Shown here: positions 17,044 to 26,597 of the stretch, one piece after another
Position numbering within the stretch: position 1 is the stretch's first letter
Layout of the letters: the number at the start of each line of letters is the position of its first letter
Assembly (NCBI GenBank): GCA_903789415.1
Contig: CAIFEG010000020.1
Location: forward strand, 1-38,836
Length of the DNA: 38,836 bases
Source of the DNA: an uncultured Eggerthellaceae bacterium
GTDB lineage: Bacteria; Actinomycetota; Coriobacteriia; Coriobacteriales; Eggerthellaceae
Direction of reading: 5' to 3'
Program-made: the position numbers and the translations under genes
Notes under the pieces: generated by a model
Told to the model about the DNA's origin: nothing
Seen by the model: only the letters and a program-made list of their open reading frames with translations
The model's database searches: none

Positions 17044-19062
17044 TCAATTCAAACTCTTGATGCCATTGTCAGAATCTTGTGTCTTTATCTTGCCTTGCAA
17101 GTAAAGCAATACCAGCATAATCGGCAGCGACATGATAAGAGGCAGGGCATAGCGTATCGAGCCAACTGGAGAGGCAAATAGAACAAGTTCTTTCATAAAC
17201 AAAGGAGAAAGCGTAATAAATGTCTCTTTAGTGAGAGTTTTCTTATACAGTGCATACGCAAAGATAAAAAGAATAAGCCAGCTATACATCCCAATAGAAT
17301 AGAAGACATTAATAGGGGGAATAAACCGTATGTTTAAGCAGAAGTAGTAGAAAATCAAATGTGAAGTTGCAACTTGGTCCCAGGTATGAGCGCTTGGATG
17401 CCATCCCGGCTGAGACCACTCCTCATGTATTGGGGGATACGACACACCCGCTTCTTCAAAAAACGTCCCCACAGTAAATGGATACCAACACAGAGTCGTA
17501 TTCACTACAGCACTCAATGATTGAAGTGGATATCTCATAAAGATATTTGCAGACGCATGAACAATGTCACCTGTCGAAGGATAGCCAGGTTTATCAACTG
17601 TCAACGCGTTTTTCATCGGGTCAGATACTCTTGGCATATATAACTGCCCAACTTCTGCATATGAACGAGAAAATGCATTTTCGATAGTTGATACTGTTTC
17701 ATCATCAAGTGCATAATCATGTGATGCTGCATTGCCAATTATTTGGACGGGAATTGAAAGTGCCTCATTACTTCCCTCTCTAACCACTCCAAGAGAGTCA
17801 ATCGCGGGGCCATACCACAACGCGGTAATAGCAAAAACTGAAATCATAACGGCAAGGATCTTCTTGCTTTTATAGAGCAAGGTGTAACAAAGAAGAGCAA
17901 AAACAACAATGAAAATTCCATCGTTTCTTGTAAGAGAAACCCCTAGTGCAACAAGGGCGAGCGCAACAGGATGATAGATAAAACTCTTCTGGATCTTTGC
18001 ATTATCTTGTTGTTTTACCACAAGTAGGAGACATTGCAGAACAAACAAAACTATCAAGTATGCCTGCAATGTGTCTTTCCCTATCAGAAGGGTATACACA
18101 GGGAATAAGGGGAACAGCGCAAAGAAGATCAAGGCGAAATATACAAGCCCTCTGCGTTTGCATAATCTCCGCATCCATACCATAACCTGTGCGAGCACAA
18201 AGAGCGCCAATACAAGCTGAACGAGGAACATGAGAAATGTTCCCATATTTCCTGACGGGTCAAATTGCAGACCTACTTCGAACAAAGATCCGTACAGTAT
18301 TGCAACCGCATAAGGGAAATGCGTTGTTGGATACAAACCATTAAAGTGAAAATATTGAGCGAGTTGCCTGCTTGTATCGTTCATATAGCTTCCTGGTATA
18401 TATGTAACGATATACGGCATCCAGGCAATCAAAATAATGAGCAGAACAACCGCGATGTATTTCCTATCTGGCAAGCTAAAAAATTTATTCGTCCACGTAT
18501 GCGAGCTCTGTTTAGAGATAGTGCTCAATGAAGGAAGAAATTTATCACAGCATGCAAATGCAACAATAATGCATGAAAACGCAATTGCATAATATCCAAT
18601 AAAGAGAATAACGCGCAGGAAATAGATGACCGTAAGATTTCTAATAACTGCATAATTGTTCCATTCCGGATGTGGACCATCAGATCCATAACTAAAAGGA
18701 TATGAGATATGGATCTCAGAGATATCAGTACTGTAGGACTGACTTAAGGGGATTCCTAACCATAGACATGCCGCGAAAAACAATGCGAGAACCAAAACGA
18801 TAAGATATGTGCGTCTTGACTGGCGAATGCTTATTCCGATTTTCAAAAGATGAGAAGACCCCGTAAGCAATAAATAAGAACCATAAAGAAGAAGCCCGAA
18901 AAAAAGACTGCTCGTAACACTCAAAAATGAATTCACATTGAGATTCACAATCGTATTTCCCGGATACGAGACAGAACATCCGATGCATGTACAGATAAAC
19001 GCGCACCAGAAAATAACGGTAAGAAATACCGATTTGTGCAACGATAAACTTTGCGAACCCAT
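17044..19062 (-). CDS. Polytopic membrane protein, DUF6020-like, tandem paralogue 1
   Basis: 672 residues from ATG 19062. The longer frame to 19245 would overlap the upstream paralogue and lacks homology to it, and this ATG matches the paralogue's start (both share HKSVFLxVxFW). About 14 helices are visible, with extracellular loops carrying TDISEIHISYPFSYGSDG and PTTHFPYAVAILYGSLFEVG. The topology and length fit GT-C-type membrane glycosyltransferases; from memory the family is listed as DUF6020 in actinobacteria. The acidic DDTSRQ/NDTSRQ segment in the loop after helix 7 could be the GT-C-style acidic site. Together with the neighbouring copy it probably decorates a surface polymer, but no substrate is known. 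AAGG lies upstream of the start. Confidence 0.68.
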   Translation of the reverse strand: MGSQSLSLHKSVFLTVIFWCAFICTCIGCSVSYPGNTIVNLNVNSFLSVTSSLFFGLLLYGSYLLLTGSSHLLKIGISIRQSRRTYLIVLVLALFFAACLWLGIPLSQSYSTDISEIHISYPFSYGSDGPHPEWNNYAVIRNLTVIYFLRVILFIGYYAIAFSCIIVAFACCDKFLPSLSTISKQSSHTWTNKFFSLPDRKYIAVVLLIILIAWMPYIVTYIPGSYMNDTSRQLAQYFHFNGLYPTTHFPYAVAILYGSLFEVGLQFDPSGNMGTFLMFLVQLVLALFVLAQVMVWMRRLCKRRGLVYFALIFFALFPLFPVYTLLIGKDTLQAYLIVLFVLQCLLLVVKQQDNAKIQKSFIYHPVALALVALGVSLTRNDGIFIVVFALLCYTLLYKSKKILAVMISVFAITALWYGPAIDSLGVVREGSNEALSIPVQIIGNAASHDYALDDETVSTIENAFSRSYAEVGQLYMPRVSDPMKNALTVDKPGYPSTGDIVHASANIFMRYPLQSLSAVVNTTLCWYPFTVGTFFEEAGVSYPPIHEEWSQPGWHPSAHTWDQVATSHLIFYYFCLNIRFIPPINVFYSIGMYSWLILFIFAYALYKKTLTKETFITLSPLFMKELVLFASPVGSIRYALPLIMSLPIMLVLLYLQGKIKTQDSDNGIKSLN
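18214..18380. repeat. 167-bp stretch identical to 20285-20451
   Basis: Aligning the two paralogues shows base-for-base identity over 167 bp, at an offset of 2071 bp. Flanking coding sequence differs at many synonymous sites. This is the copy in paralogue 1. Confidence 0.9.
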
Positions 19063-19132
19063 AGCCAATAACCTTAATAAATAAAAAGACCAAAAGTCTC
19101 TTTTTCTATGTATTGAACAAAGTTGAATGTTA

Positions 19133-21136
19133 CTACCTAGAACCCGTCGAACCTGCTCTACTTTGCAGATAGAACAATAAAAGTATGATCGGTAGCGACA
19201 TGATAAGAGGCAGAGCATAACGGAGCGAACCAACTGGAGCCGCAAACAGCACGAGCTCTTTCACGAAAAGCGGAGAAAGGGCCAAACATGTCTCTTTAAC
19301 GAGAAATTTTCTATAAAGCGCATATGCAAAGATAAAAAGCATGAGCCAGCTATACATGCCAATTGAATAAAAGATATTTATTGGTGGAATATTGCGTATG
19401 TTCTGGCAGAATTGGAAAAAGCCTGCGGTGGCATCAGCTTTTTCTGTCCATGTGGACCAACTTGGGTGCCATCCAGGTTGTTCCCAATCATCGATTGAAG
19501 TGGTTGGAAATGTCACGCCCGTTTCGCTGTAATACGTTCCTATGGTAAACGGATACCAGCACAAAGTCGTGTTAAAAGCCGCGCTCAATGATTGAAGTGG
19601 ATATCTCGAAAACACACGTATAGATGCGTGAATAACATCCCCCGTCGAAGGATATCCAGGTTGATCAATCGTCAAAGCATCTTTCATTGGATCAGACAGT
19701 CTTGGCATATATGTCTGTCCAACTTCCGCATATGAACGAGAGAAGCTTCTCTCAATAACCGATGTTGTTTCATCGTCAAGTGAATAATCGTGTGATGCCG
19801 CATTACCAATTATTTGGACAGGAAGGGAAAGCGCCTCGTTACTTCCCTCTCGCACTACACCAAGCGCATAAATGGCTGGACCATACCACAATGCTGAGAT
19901 TGCAAAGACAGAAAGTGTCACAGCAAGAAATTTCTTACTTTTACATACTAAGGTATAGAGAATAAGAGCAAACGTGACGATAAAAATTCCGTCGTTTCTT
20001 GTAAGAGAGACCCCTAGGGCAACTAATGCTATCGCGATCGGGTGGTAGACAAAACTCTGCTGGATCTTCGCAGTATTTCTTTGTTTTAAGGCGCCTAAGA
20101 AAAGTTGCAGGGCAAAAAGCACTACAAAACACGCATGCAAGGTATCTTTCTCAATCGTAAGAGCATACACAGGGAATAATGGCAGAAGCGCAAAAAAGAG
20201 TACGGCGAAATATACAAGCCCCCTGCGTTTGCATAATCTTCGCATCCATATCATTATCTGAGCAATAACAAAAAACATTAAGATAAGCTGAACGAGGAAC
20301 ATGAGAAATGTTCCCATATTTCCTGACGGGTCAAATTGCAGACCTACTTCGAACAAAGATCCGTACAGTATTGCAACCGCATAAGGGAAATGCGTTGTTG
20401 GATACAAACCATTAAAGTGAAAATATTGAGCGAGTTGCCTGCTTGTATCGTCAGAATAACTTCCCGGGAAGTACGTGACAATGTAGGGCAACCATGCAAT
20501 AAGAATGATAAGCAGAACGGATGCTACAAATCTTCTATCAGATAAACTAAAGAATTTATTTGCCCATTCATGCGAACTTTTTCGAGATTCATCCTTAAGA
20601 CAAGGAAGAAATTTATCACAGCATGCAAATGCAACCATAATGCATGAAAATGCAATTGCGTAATACCCAATAAAAAGAACAATGCGCAGGAAATAGATGG
20701 CCGCAAGATTTCTAATAACTGCATAATTGTTCCATTCCGGATGTGGACCATCAGAACCGTAGCTAAAAGGATATGAAATATGAATCTCAGAGATATCGGT
20801 ACTGTAGGACTGACTTAAGGGAATTCCGAACCATAGACATGCCGCAAAAAACAATGCGAGAACCAAAACGATACCATACGTTCGCTTTGATAGGTGAATG
20901 CGAAAATTAATTGTCGCTAAGCGAGGAGATCCGACAAGAAGTGAGTATGAAAGATAGAGAATAATACCAAAGAAAAGGCTGCTTGCTACCGTTAAGAATG
21001 AGTTGACATCGAGATTTGCAACGGTGTTGCCTGGATACGTAACAGAGCATCCAGCGTAGGCACATACAAATGCAAACCAAAATAATACGGCAAGAAAAAC
21101 TGACTTATGCACATAAGAATTATTTTGATTTACCAT
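19133..21136 (-). CDS. Polytopic membrane protein, DUF6020-like, tandem paralogue 2
   Basis: 667 residues from ATG 21136, with GAGG eight bases upstream. Sequence and helix pattern match the downstream paralogue almost throughout: the shared blocks are the YTYPGNT-like N-terminal loop, YSTDISEIHISYPFSYG, DDTSRQLAQYFHFNGLYPTT, GYPSTGD and SLRYALPLIMSLPI. The N-terminal 60 residues, the region around residue 500-560 and the last 10 residues diverge most. The gap between the two genes is 70 bp, so they form one unit. It lies next to the infC operon terminator. As for copy 1, a GT-C-type glycosyltransferase role is inferred from topology and neighbours; it could also be a polymer-processing or transport protein. 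Confidence 0.68.
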   Translation of the reverse strand: MVNQNNSYVHKSVFLAVLFWFAFVCAYAGCSVTYPGNTVANLDVNSFLTVASSLFFGIILYLSYSLLVGSPRLATINFRIHLSKRTYGIVLVLALFFAACLWFGIPLSQSYSTDISEIHISYPFSYGSDGPHPEWNNYAVIRNLAAIYFLRIVLFIGYYAIAFSCIMVAFACCDKFLPCLKDESRKSSHEWANKFFSLSDRRFVASVLLIILIAWLPYIVTYFPGSYSDDTSRQLAQYFHFNGLYPTTHFPYAVAILYGSLFEVGLQFDPSGNMGTFLMFLVQLILMFFVIAQIMIWMRRLCKRRGLVYFAVLFFALLPLFPVYALTIEKDTLHACFVVLFALQLFLGALKQRNTAKIQQSFVYHPIAIALVALGVSLTRNDGIFIVTFALILYTLVCKSKKFLAVTLSVFAISALWYGPAIYALGVVREGSNEALSLPVQIIGNAASHDYSLDDETTSVIERSFSRSYAEVGQTYMPRLSDPMKDALTIDQPGYPSTGDVIHASIRVFSRYPLQSLSAAFNTTLCWYPFTIGTYYSETGVTFPTTSIDDWEQPGWHPSWSTWTEKADATAGFFQFCQNIRNIPPINIFYSIGMYSWLMLFIFAYALYRKFLVKETCLALSPLFVKELVLFAAPVGSLRYALPLIMSLPIILLLFYLQSRAGSTGSR
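20285..20451. repeat. 167-bp stretch identical to 18214-18380
   Basis: Second copy of the identical segment, inside paralogue 2. It encodes the loop DDTSRQLAQYFHF through SGNMGTFLMFLVQL. Confidence 0.9.
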
Positions 21137-24224: not shown

Positions 24225-25373
24225 TTACCGTTGGGAGGACGACTGCCCCGTTGCGGCGCCACTGCCTGTGTTGCTTGCCGTTCCCGAACTTGTGCCCGTA
24301 CCTGTCGTGCTTGTCCCTTGGGTTCCCGTGCCTGCCGCACTTGAGCCAGTTCCGCTCCCACTCGAATTCTCAGAAGTTTCTTGAGATGTGCCTGCACCCT
24401 GGCCGCTCGTTGATGTTTGCCCGTTTGATTCATCTTGAGAAGAAGATGACTGTTCTTGTAAGTTCGCCACATTAGATCCTGCAGAAGAACTGACTTGGTT
24501 GGAATTGGTGGAGCTGCTATTTGAGGCTGATTGCGCCGTTGAAGAGGCTCCCTCTGTTAATGGCGTTGCTGAAAGATCCAACAAGCTTCCCAGCCATTTG
24601 CTTTGGATGACTGAGATAACTCCATTGTTCTGTAGCGTTGAAAGTGCATTTGAAATCGCATTGGACAACGCTGAATTGTTACTATTGCACGCAAAACAAT
24701 ATCCTGATGGACTTTGCAAAAGCCCTACAATATGTGCACCGTAATTCTGTGTGTAATTTAAATACGTCCCGATCACTGCATCGCACGCAACATAAGAAGC
24801 TTGACCGTTTTGCAATTGAGAAAAAGCACTTGATAAATCATTTGCAAGTGTCAGCGCATCATTTCCGTATTGATCGCTGACCAATGAAGAGCTATAAGAA
24901 TTCGTCTGAGCAACGATTACCGGAGTGCTTGTTGTGCTGGGGATGTTATTTTGTGTTGTCGCAAAAAGCGCAGGGGCACTTTGAACATAAGGATTTGATA
25001 CCCAATAGTCCTCAGAGGAAATAGTATCCGGATCAATATCCATCACAACATCAACCGATCCGTCATCAATGGCACTCGTAGGATCACTGCCCACATCGAC
25101 CAGTTCAAGTTTTAATCCCAACTGATCTGCAACGGCAGCTGCAGTATCAACATCCAAACCGATGATTCTATTCGAGTTTTGATATGCAAAAGGAGCATTC
25201 TGTGCATCAACTCCCACACGCAATGTTCCATCTGTTCCGATTGTAGGCGTGCTGATAGAAGGAGATGACGTTTGCGGAATACCACTGTCTTGGTTAGCCG
25301 AACAACTGGCAAGTGCAAAAACAGAAAGCATAGCTGCAACGCACACAAGTAACAGAGTACGCAAACGTTTCAT
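24225..25373 (-). CDS. Amino-acid-type ABC substrate-binding lipoprotein with long disordered tail
   Basis: 382 residues from ATG 25373, with AAAGGG upstream; the frame is open to 25463 but that stretch precedes the signal peptide and overlaps a structured RNA. A lipoprotein signal (KRLRTLLLVCVAAMLSVFALASC, lipobox C24) precedes a family 3 binding domain. LRVGVDAQNAPFAYQ, GLDVDTAAAVADQLG and the AIDDGSVDVVMDIDPDTISSEDY segment are typical. Family members bind amino acids or related solutes outside the membrane. After about residue 285 the protein ends in a low-complexity tail of about 95 Ser/Thr/Gly/Asn residues, unusual for a binding protein. No permease or ATPase gene is adjacent, so it is an orphan that may serve a transporter elsewhere or act as a sensor. 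Confidence 0.83.
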   Translation of the reverse strand: MKRLRTLLLVCVAAMLSVFALASCSANQDSGIPQTSSPSISTPTIGTDGTLRVGVDAQNAPFAYQNSNRIIGLDVDTAAAVADQLGLKLELVDVGSDPTSAIDDGSVDVVMDIDPDTISSEDYWVSNPYVQSAPALFATTQNNIPSTTSTPVIVAQTNSYSSSLVSDQYGNDALTLANDLSSAFSQLQNGQASYVACDAVIGTYLNYTQNYGAHIVGLLQSPSGYCFACNSNNSALSNAISNALSTLQNNGVISVIQSKWLGSLLDLSATPLTEGASSTAQSASNSSSTNSNQVSSSAGSNVANLQEQSSSSQDESNGQTSTSGQGAGTSQETSENSSGSGTGSSAAGTGTQGTSTTGTGTSSGTASNTGSGAATGQSSSQR

Positions 25374-25404: not shown

Positions 25405-25632
25405 TTTCCCGCGGCTGACCTAGTCTTTGTCCCCACAATCGCGTGCTGGAACGTAGCTTGCACTCAGTTCTCTCGTCCGAGCAACCCCTTGTTGCTAATG
25501 AGCGGACGGCACGTCTTACATCTAGAATGCGCCATGCTCGCCATAATGGTTTACGTGGATCCTTTTGACCGCATCTGCCATGGAATAAGAAGCATCTTAC
25601 ATATGCTTCCGCAACTACAGACCCGCAGGAAA
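25405..25632 (-). ncRNA. Structured RNA of about 228 nt (candidate raiA-motif-like or cis-regulatory RNA)
   Basis: The 420-bp gap between comF and the binding-protein gene contains a clear fold on the minus strand. A 10-bp terminal helix joins the ends: TTTCCTGCGG (25632-25623) with CCGCGGGAAA (25414-25405), one G-U pair. Inside are a perfect 7-bp hairpin GAAGCAT/ATGCTTC (25609-25603 with 25595-25589), and a two-part helix GTCCG/CGGAC stacked on AGCAAC/GTTGCT (25507-25503 with 25479-25475, and 25496-25491 with 25485-25480). A GTGC/GCAC hairpin (about 25462-25442) is also present. The octamer ATGTAAGA occurs twice. Promoter elements lie just upstream and no terminator follows; the RNA ends 31 nt before the lipoprotein start. 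raiA-motif RNAs are about this size and, as I recall, are linked to raiA/comFC loci. The identity is inference. Confidence 0.62.
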
Positions 25633-25641
25633 CCAAACAAA

Positions 25642-25680
25642 AGTATAGCTGATTAATCGTAATGCAAACCATACTGTCAA
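25642..25680 (-). promoter_or_regulatory. Promoter of the structured RNA
   Basis: On the minus strand TTGACA (25680-25675) is followed after 17 bp by ATTAAT (25657-25652). A better -10, TATACT, lies at 25647-25642 with TTTGCA 15 bp ahead of it. Either gives a transcript starting 3-13 nt before the 5' strand of the terminal helix. Confidence 0.6.
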
Positions 25681-25793: not shown

Positions 25794-26597
25794 TTAGACA
25801 CGCGTAAACGTTGCACAATACACTTTTGAAACTCCGGCATCTCGAAGTATCTGAGCAGCTGAGCAAAGTGTTGCTCCCGTCGTATACACATCGTCGACAA
25901 TGATGATTTCGGCGCCTTCCAATTTATTGAAAAGCGTAGAGGATTTATTTAAAGAAAAGCGCCCATTCATATTTACAAAGCGCTGACCTCGTGAAAGTTT
26001 GCGCTGATCATGAGTTTTCGGTCGATTAAATACGTAGAACGACGGCAAGCCAATCCATGAAGCCACAGATGTGCCTAACGCATATCCATGATCAAAACCA
26101 CGTCTTTGGAATGCTTTTCTTGTTGCCGGTATATACGTAACTGCACATTCCTCTTGAACCCATTCAGGAGGAATTGCCTGTGCAATAATACGACCCATAA
26201 TTCCTGCGAGGCGCCTTTCTCCAAGATCTTTATGTGCGCGAACGATCTTACCGGTAATATCATTATCAAAAACCGTTGCACTCACACATCCATTGAAAGG
26301 AAGAGACTCAATTCCTTTTTGTGCAAGGGAAAAAGAAGAACACTCAACACACTGATGGAGGCCTAAGGAGGCACCGCATGCAGGACACGCTTTCCAGAAA
26401 TCGATATAGGGAAGTGTATGCTCGCAATCTCTGCAAAGAACTTCTCCTGGCGCGCCGCAGATAACGCAACGTGTCGGCCAAAATGTTTCAAGAAAGATTT
26501 CTTTGCTTGCCTGTGCATATAGCAAGCCGCATGAGAGTAGAGATCTATCTCTATATTGTGATGAGACACGGTCTACCTTATCTGATCTTTTTTTCAT
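25794..26597 (-). CDS. comF: ComF family phosphoribosyltransferase-like protein
   Basis: 267 residues. The N-terminal zinc-binding part shows CVICGAPGEVLCRDC and CPACGASLGLHQCVEC. The C-terminal phosphoribosyltransferase fold has FQRRGFDHGYALG, HDQRKLSRGQR and the PRPP-binding loop EIIIVDDVYTTGATL. In naturally competent bacteria ComF/ComFC supports uptake and handling of transforming single-stranded DNA. ATG 26597 has GGAG directly adjacent; the GTG ten codons later follows AAGG with better spacing and may be the true start. After the stop a GTATGC-N8-GCATAC hairpin (25766-25785) may act in 3' end formation. A structured RNA follows, an arrangement known from comFC/raiA loci, but no raiA gene is in the window. 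Confidence 0.88.
   Translation of the reverse strand: MKKRSDKVDRVSSQYRDRSLLSCGLLYAQASKEIFLETFWPTRCVICGAPGEVLCRDCEHTLPYIDFWKACPACGASLGLHQCVECSSFSLAQKGIESLPFNGCVSATVFDNDITGKIVRAHKDLGERRLAGIMGRIIAQAIPPEWVQEECAVTYIPATRKAFQRRGFDHGYALGTSVASWIGLPSFYVFNRPKTHDQRKLSRGQRFVNMNGRFSLNKSSTLFNKLEGAEIIIVDDVYTTGATLCSAAQILRDAGVSKVYCATFTRV

Follow-up and report, generated by a model that had tools for sequence, protein, structure and literature searches.

Does the structured region between a comF gene and a binding-lipoprotein gene of an uncultured Eggerthellaceae bacterium belong to a known class of RNA, or does it regulate the lipoprotein gene in cis, as its leader? Both alternatives were raised in a first-pass annotation of the window, i.e. 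the whole stretch of 38,836 nucleotides analysed here, which recommended Rfam models and a search for covarying pairs in relatives, and which named conservation at the protein level only as an observation that would speak against a structured RNA.

Identity and distribution of the RNA

The raiA motif, alias ModT, is a widespread class of bacterial RNAs with an intricate fold. The region at 25406-25631 on the minus strand is a confirmed, added member of this known class (Table 1). The Rfam covariance-model search places it full length on raiA RNA (RF03072, positions 1-209) with 139.7 bits (E 1.2e-34) against a gathering score of 101.3, and independent covariation agrees with the match, so that the first of the two alternatives stands. 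The features shared with RF03072 comprise, besides the full-length match, the helices P1, P3, P4-P5 and P6-P8, the pseudoknot pk-1, an upstream comFC gene, a predicted promoter of its own and occurrence as a single copy. The source genome contains one copy, as do 75 of 80 relatives; the samples of the class and of the phylum likewise show single copies, in 114 of 119 and 76 of 198 genomes, respectively, and none was found in 14 control genomes. A sequence pattern of the RNA retrieved near relatives designated as Eggerthellaceae and Coriobacteriia; the lipoprotein, searched against named genomes, had no match.

Table 1. Positions in the window of the RNA, its structural parts, its promoter element and its neighbouring genes
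Feature	Position	Strand	Basis or remark
raiA-motif (ModT) RNA, full length	25406..25631	-	Rfam RF03072 1-209 and covariation
-10 hexamer TATACT of the predicted own promoter of the RNA	25642..25647	-	comparison with relatives
P1a, 5' strand (pairs with 25406-25414)	25623..25631	-	Rfam and covariation
P1a, 3' strand	25406..25414	-	Rfam and covariation
Optional P2 hairpin, 7 bp, loop AUGUAAG	25589..25609	-	covariation, all 7 pairs with double changes
P3-loop half of pk-1 (RNA 57-62)	25570..25575	-	covariation
pk-loop half of pk-1 (RNA 101-106)	25526..25531	-	covariation
P6-P7-P8 multi-stem domain, variant-2 type	25442..25513	-	Rfam, family alignment, covariation
comFC-like gene, ComF family, phosphoribosyltransferase domain	25794..26597	-	ends 162 nt before the RNA
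SBP_bac_3 amino-acid-binding-type lipoprotein gene	24225..25373	-	no terminator between RNA and gene

Secondary structure and covariation

Helix P1 joins the 5' end of the RNA to its 3' end. The 10-bp terminal helix of the first-pass annotation is present on the minus strand, with one G-U among its pairs, and consists of 9 bp (25631-25623 with 25414-25406) and an A-U pair (25632/25405); the coordinates given originally, 25405-25632, are thus the Rfam span and this one extra closing pair. In the family, the bases outside the Rfam boundary pair as well, at -1/+1 in 39 of 43 members and at -2/+2 in 38 of 43. The perfect 7-bp hairpin seen in the single sequence corresponds to P2 (RNA positions 23-29/37-43), which varies in sequence among relatives and keeps its pairing, and the 11-bp two-part helix corresponds to P7 (5 bp) with an inner helix of 6 bp. 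The repeated ATGTAAGA is likewise present (RNA positions 30-37 and 111-118), but most likely by chance, to judge from the P2 loop, the sequence of which is not conserved among relatives; the idea that it represents a second, meaningful pk-loop copy was rejected for this reason. The pk-2 of the raiA motif has two pairs only. The pseudoknot pk-1, formed by the P3 loop with the pk-loop, is paired in 100% of cells in 39 sequences, and one of its pairs changes from U-A to C-G in 7 of these 39. It comprises six pairs here versus seven in the structure from C. acetobutylicum (PMC11751092).

Covariation was examined in our own alignment of 39 RNAs from Eggerthellaceae, with a structure that combines the consensus of Rfam with the cryo-EM description in the literature (PMC11751092). 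Standard pairs occupy 95.8% of cells, versus 86.9% in shuffles and 30-44% with slid partners; drawing up the structure partly on this very sequence favours it over the slid versions. Independent of this advantage are the double-sided changes, found in 37 of 58 pairs, pk-1 included, and none of 500 shuffles matches the real alignment on any of five measures. Folding energy is unexceptional (z = -0.91), would not reveal the RNA by itself and was discarded as uninformative; the case therefore rests on homology and covariation. By cryo-EM, raiA-motif RNA is a monomer with a compact fold (PMC11751092, PMC12286853).

Some relatives deviate in length. Loci L044 (G013) and L059 (G031) have raiA RNAs of just 169 and 194 nt, and that of G031 has nearly lost the P6-P8 domain and resembles variant 1, in a family that otherwise possesses the long form. 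In L089 (G077), P2 has grown into a hairpin of ~70 nt.

Promoter and transcript start

In line with the promoter elements noted in the first-pass annotation, a hexamer TATACT ends at a distance of 10 nt from the 5' end of the RNA. It coincides in position with an extended -10 element (TGnTAnAnT) conserved among relatives, with AG in the source genome where the relatives have TG; a generic sigma-70 promoter scan at the RNA returned no match, and the element was recognised solely through the comparison of relatives. TGnTAnAnT is found in 38 of 43 loci of the family, 18 of 26 in the rest of the order and 23 of 25 in the rest of the class Coriobacteriia, mostly 8-10 nt from the RNA. Outside the class it occurs in 2 of 27 loci, both at a different distance, and control positions yield 0-1. 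This extended -10, common to Coriobacteriia, probably sets the transcript start at the 5' end of the RNA. In view of the pairs at -1/+1 and -2/+2, the start site lies probably at the base of P1. The RNA is accordingly predicted to have its own transcription start, as the inversion of comFC in 28 of the 43 family members requires.

Gene order around the RNA

Both flanking genes of the first-pass annotation were recovered on the same strand as the RNA, and the distance of 31 nt to the lipoprotein gene is exact when counted from 25405 to the ATG at 25373, i.e. 32 nt after the RNA end at 25406. Downstream of its SBP_bac_3 domain, the lipoprotein carries a C-terminal low-complexity tail of ~110 residues rich in Ser, Thr, Gly and Gln.

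A raiA gene downstream is typical of the motif (66% of its members), not defining. The present locus differs from this pattern: the raiA/HPF gene of the source genome lies on another contig, and the lipoprotein gene follows the RNA. No raiA gene was found within 4 kb of the RNA at any of the 43 Eggerthellaceae loci, as far as the contigs reach. comFC lies upstream of 74% of raiA-motif members (PMC11706538), and the ComF-family gene of the window, on the same strand and 162 nt upstream, agrees with this. Within the Eggerthellaceae, comFC is colinear with the RNA in 7 of 43 loci, and in a further 8 of 43, some of them at contig ends, it was not found within 4 kb.

A same-strand lipoprotein gene follows the RNA in all 43 sampled Eggerthellaceae; beyond the family it does so in 24 of 26 loci of the order and, beyond the order, in 25 of 25 loci of the class. 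The gap measures 21-77 nt (median 35) in Eggerthellaceae, where it contains a Shine-Dalgarno-like stretch in 43 of 43 cases; over the sampled class the median is 35-40 nt. Of all 67 gaps compared for T-runs, one contains a T5 run. The usual order in the sampled class is comFC, RNA, SBP_bac_3 lipoprotein and then raiA or further transporter genes; some relatives carry another binding protein and an ABC permease there. Outside the class the order is comFC, RNA, raiA, without the lipoprotein. In two related genomes of another family, G072 and G076 (L085, L088), the lipoprotein is absent as well, so that raiA follows the RNA, at ~200 nt. That raiA motifs often precede genes of periplasmic binding proteins is already stated in a review (PMC11477304); the invariant order in Eggerthellaceae is a refinement of this association, as the class-wide extended -10 and the separation from c-di-GMP and sporulation described below are refinements to a known class.

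Proposed mode of action and alternatives

Very probably, the locus encodes a stable, compact raiA-motif RNA that has its own promoter, is locked at its ends by P1 and held in its core by pk-1, and acts in trans. Established directly by the analysis are the membership of the class, the fold, the occurrence as a single copy, the position of the promoter and the placement before the lipoprotein gene. Transcription would begin at the RNA's own promoter, near the base of P1. With terminators nearly absent from the short gap in relatives, the primary transcript is expected to continue into the lipoprotein gene; processing, or partial 3' stopping near the P1 base, would then release the mature RNA. 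Abundance and trans action of the Eggerthellaceae RNA are predicted from its family: clostridial ModT is very abundant, its long isoform has a half-life like that of 5S rRNA, and clostridial knock-outs are complemented in trans (PMC11706538). ModT of C. difficile shares with the present RNA its class, a comFC-like gene upstream, a downstream gene other than raiA and, at its 5' end, a promoter of the sigma-A type (PMC11706538, PMC11477304). It differs in a downstream terminator, which yields the long isoform, whereas here a 32-nt gap without terminator leads to the lipoprotein gene.

By location, the RNA occupies the 5' leader position of the lipoprotein gene, with which it would be co-transcribed, and one might suppose that in Coriobacteriia it acts also, or only, in cis as a riboswitch-like leader controlling this amino-acid-binding lipoprotein. 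Such a leader would lead one to expect the invariant lipoprotein gene that lies 21-77 nt downstream throughout the family, and the scarcity of T5 runs in the gap fits the same picture. The link moreover persists where comFC is inverted and raiA has moved away, a second lipoprotein and an ABC permease follow in some families, and Rfam classes RF03072 as cis-reg/riboswitch. The review argues against a riboswitch on the ground that the RNA is often hundreds of nucleotides from the next gene (PMC11477304), an argument inapplicable to Coriobacteriia because the distance is short there. As in riboswitch leaders, a structured RNA directly precedes a transporter-type gene on the same strand; unlike in these, no expression platform was found in the form of a T-run terminator or of pairing between P1 and the Shine-Dalgarno region. 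Almost all gaps lack a terminator-like T-run, and the 5' strand of P1 pairs with its own Shine-Dalgarno region no better than with regions swapped in from other genomes (395 of 1000 permutations within the family are as high), so that a switch between the two found no support. The RNA also exists without the lipoprotein in G072, G076 and outside the class, and clostridial members of the motif act in trans (PMC11706538). A cis leader is accordingly considered unlikely. Of similarly low probability is a combined role, in which a trans-acting RNA would at the same time form a near-obligatory 5' leader in Coriobacteriia; a single transcript would then tie the sensing or uptake of amino acids to growth-phase output of the RNA, with neither c-di-GMP nor sporulation involved. 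The invariant order in Eggerthellaceae turns the choice between cis and trans into a concrete question.

A protein-coding region, or a fold arising by chance, has next to no probability here. An ORF of 137 aa does span the region, and the folding energy is no help; yet coding is not conserved, as 35 of 43 family members lack a forward frame that stays open throughout the RNA, and RNA lengths in the family cover all residues modulo 3. Conservation at the protein level only is contradicted by this unconserved frame together with the covarying helices and the Rfam score, and the coding explanation was rejected. Very improbable, too, is an RNA that works solely through c-di-GMP and sporulation. 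In clostridia ModT affects growth transition, sporulation and c-di-GMP, and deletion of modT in C. difficile raises c-di-GMP via DccA and lowers sporulation (PMC11706538). Spo0A, the master regulator of sporulation, was however found in none of 60 relatives, and the source genome, differing in this from the known RF03072 systems, has neither Spo0A nor GGDEF or EAL domain proteins. It is one of 16 GGDEF-free genomes among 36 Eggerthellaceae examined, 14 of which retain the RNA, and three of these carriers (G008, G018, G027) are single-contig assemblies with 99% completeness. Judging by the gene content of these RNA-bearing genomes without Spo0A and GGDEF, setting c-di-GMP or sporulation as in C. 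difficile cannot be the conserved function of the RNA, which must lie elsewhere. A conserved role in growth-phase or nutrient adaptation appears most plausible, in keeping with the genes that accompany the RNA, i.e. those of the ribosome hibernation factor RaiA and of amino-acid ABC transporters. The GGDEF-free bacteria with the RNA would be simpler test organisms.

Other features of the window

Two adjacent large membrane proteins with DUF6020 (PF19484) are encoded at 17044-19245 and 19133-21136 on the minus strand; they are paralogous and represent a tandem duplication.
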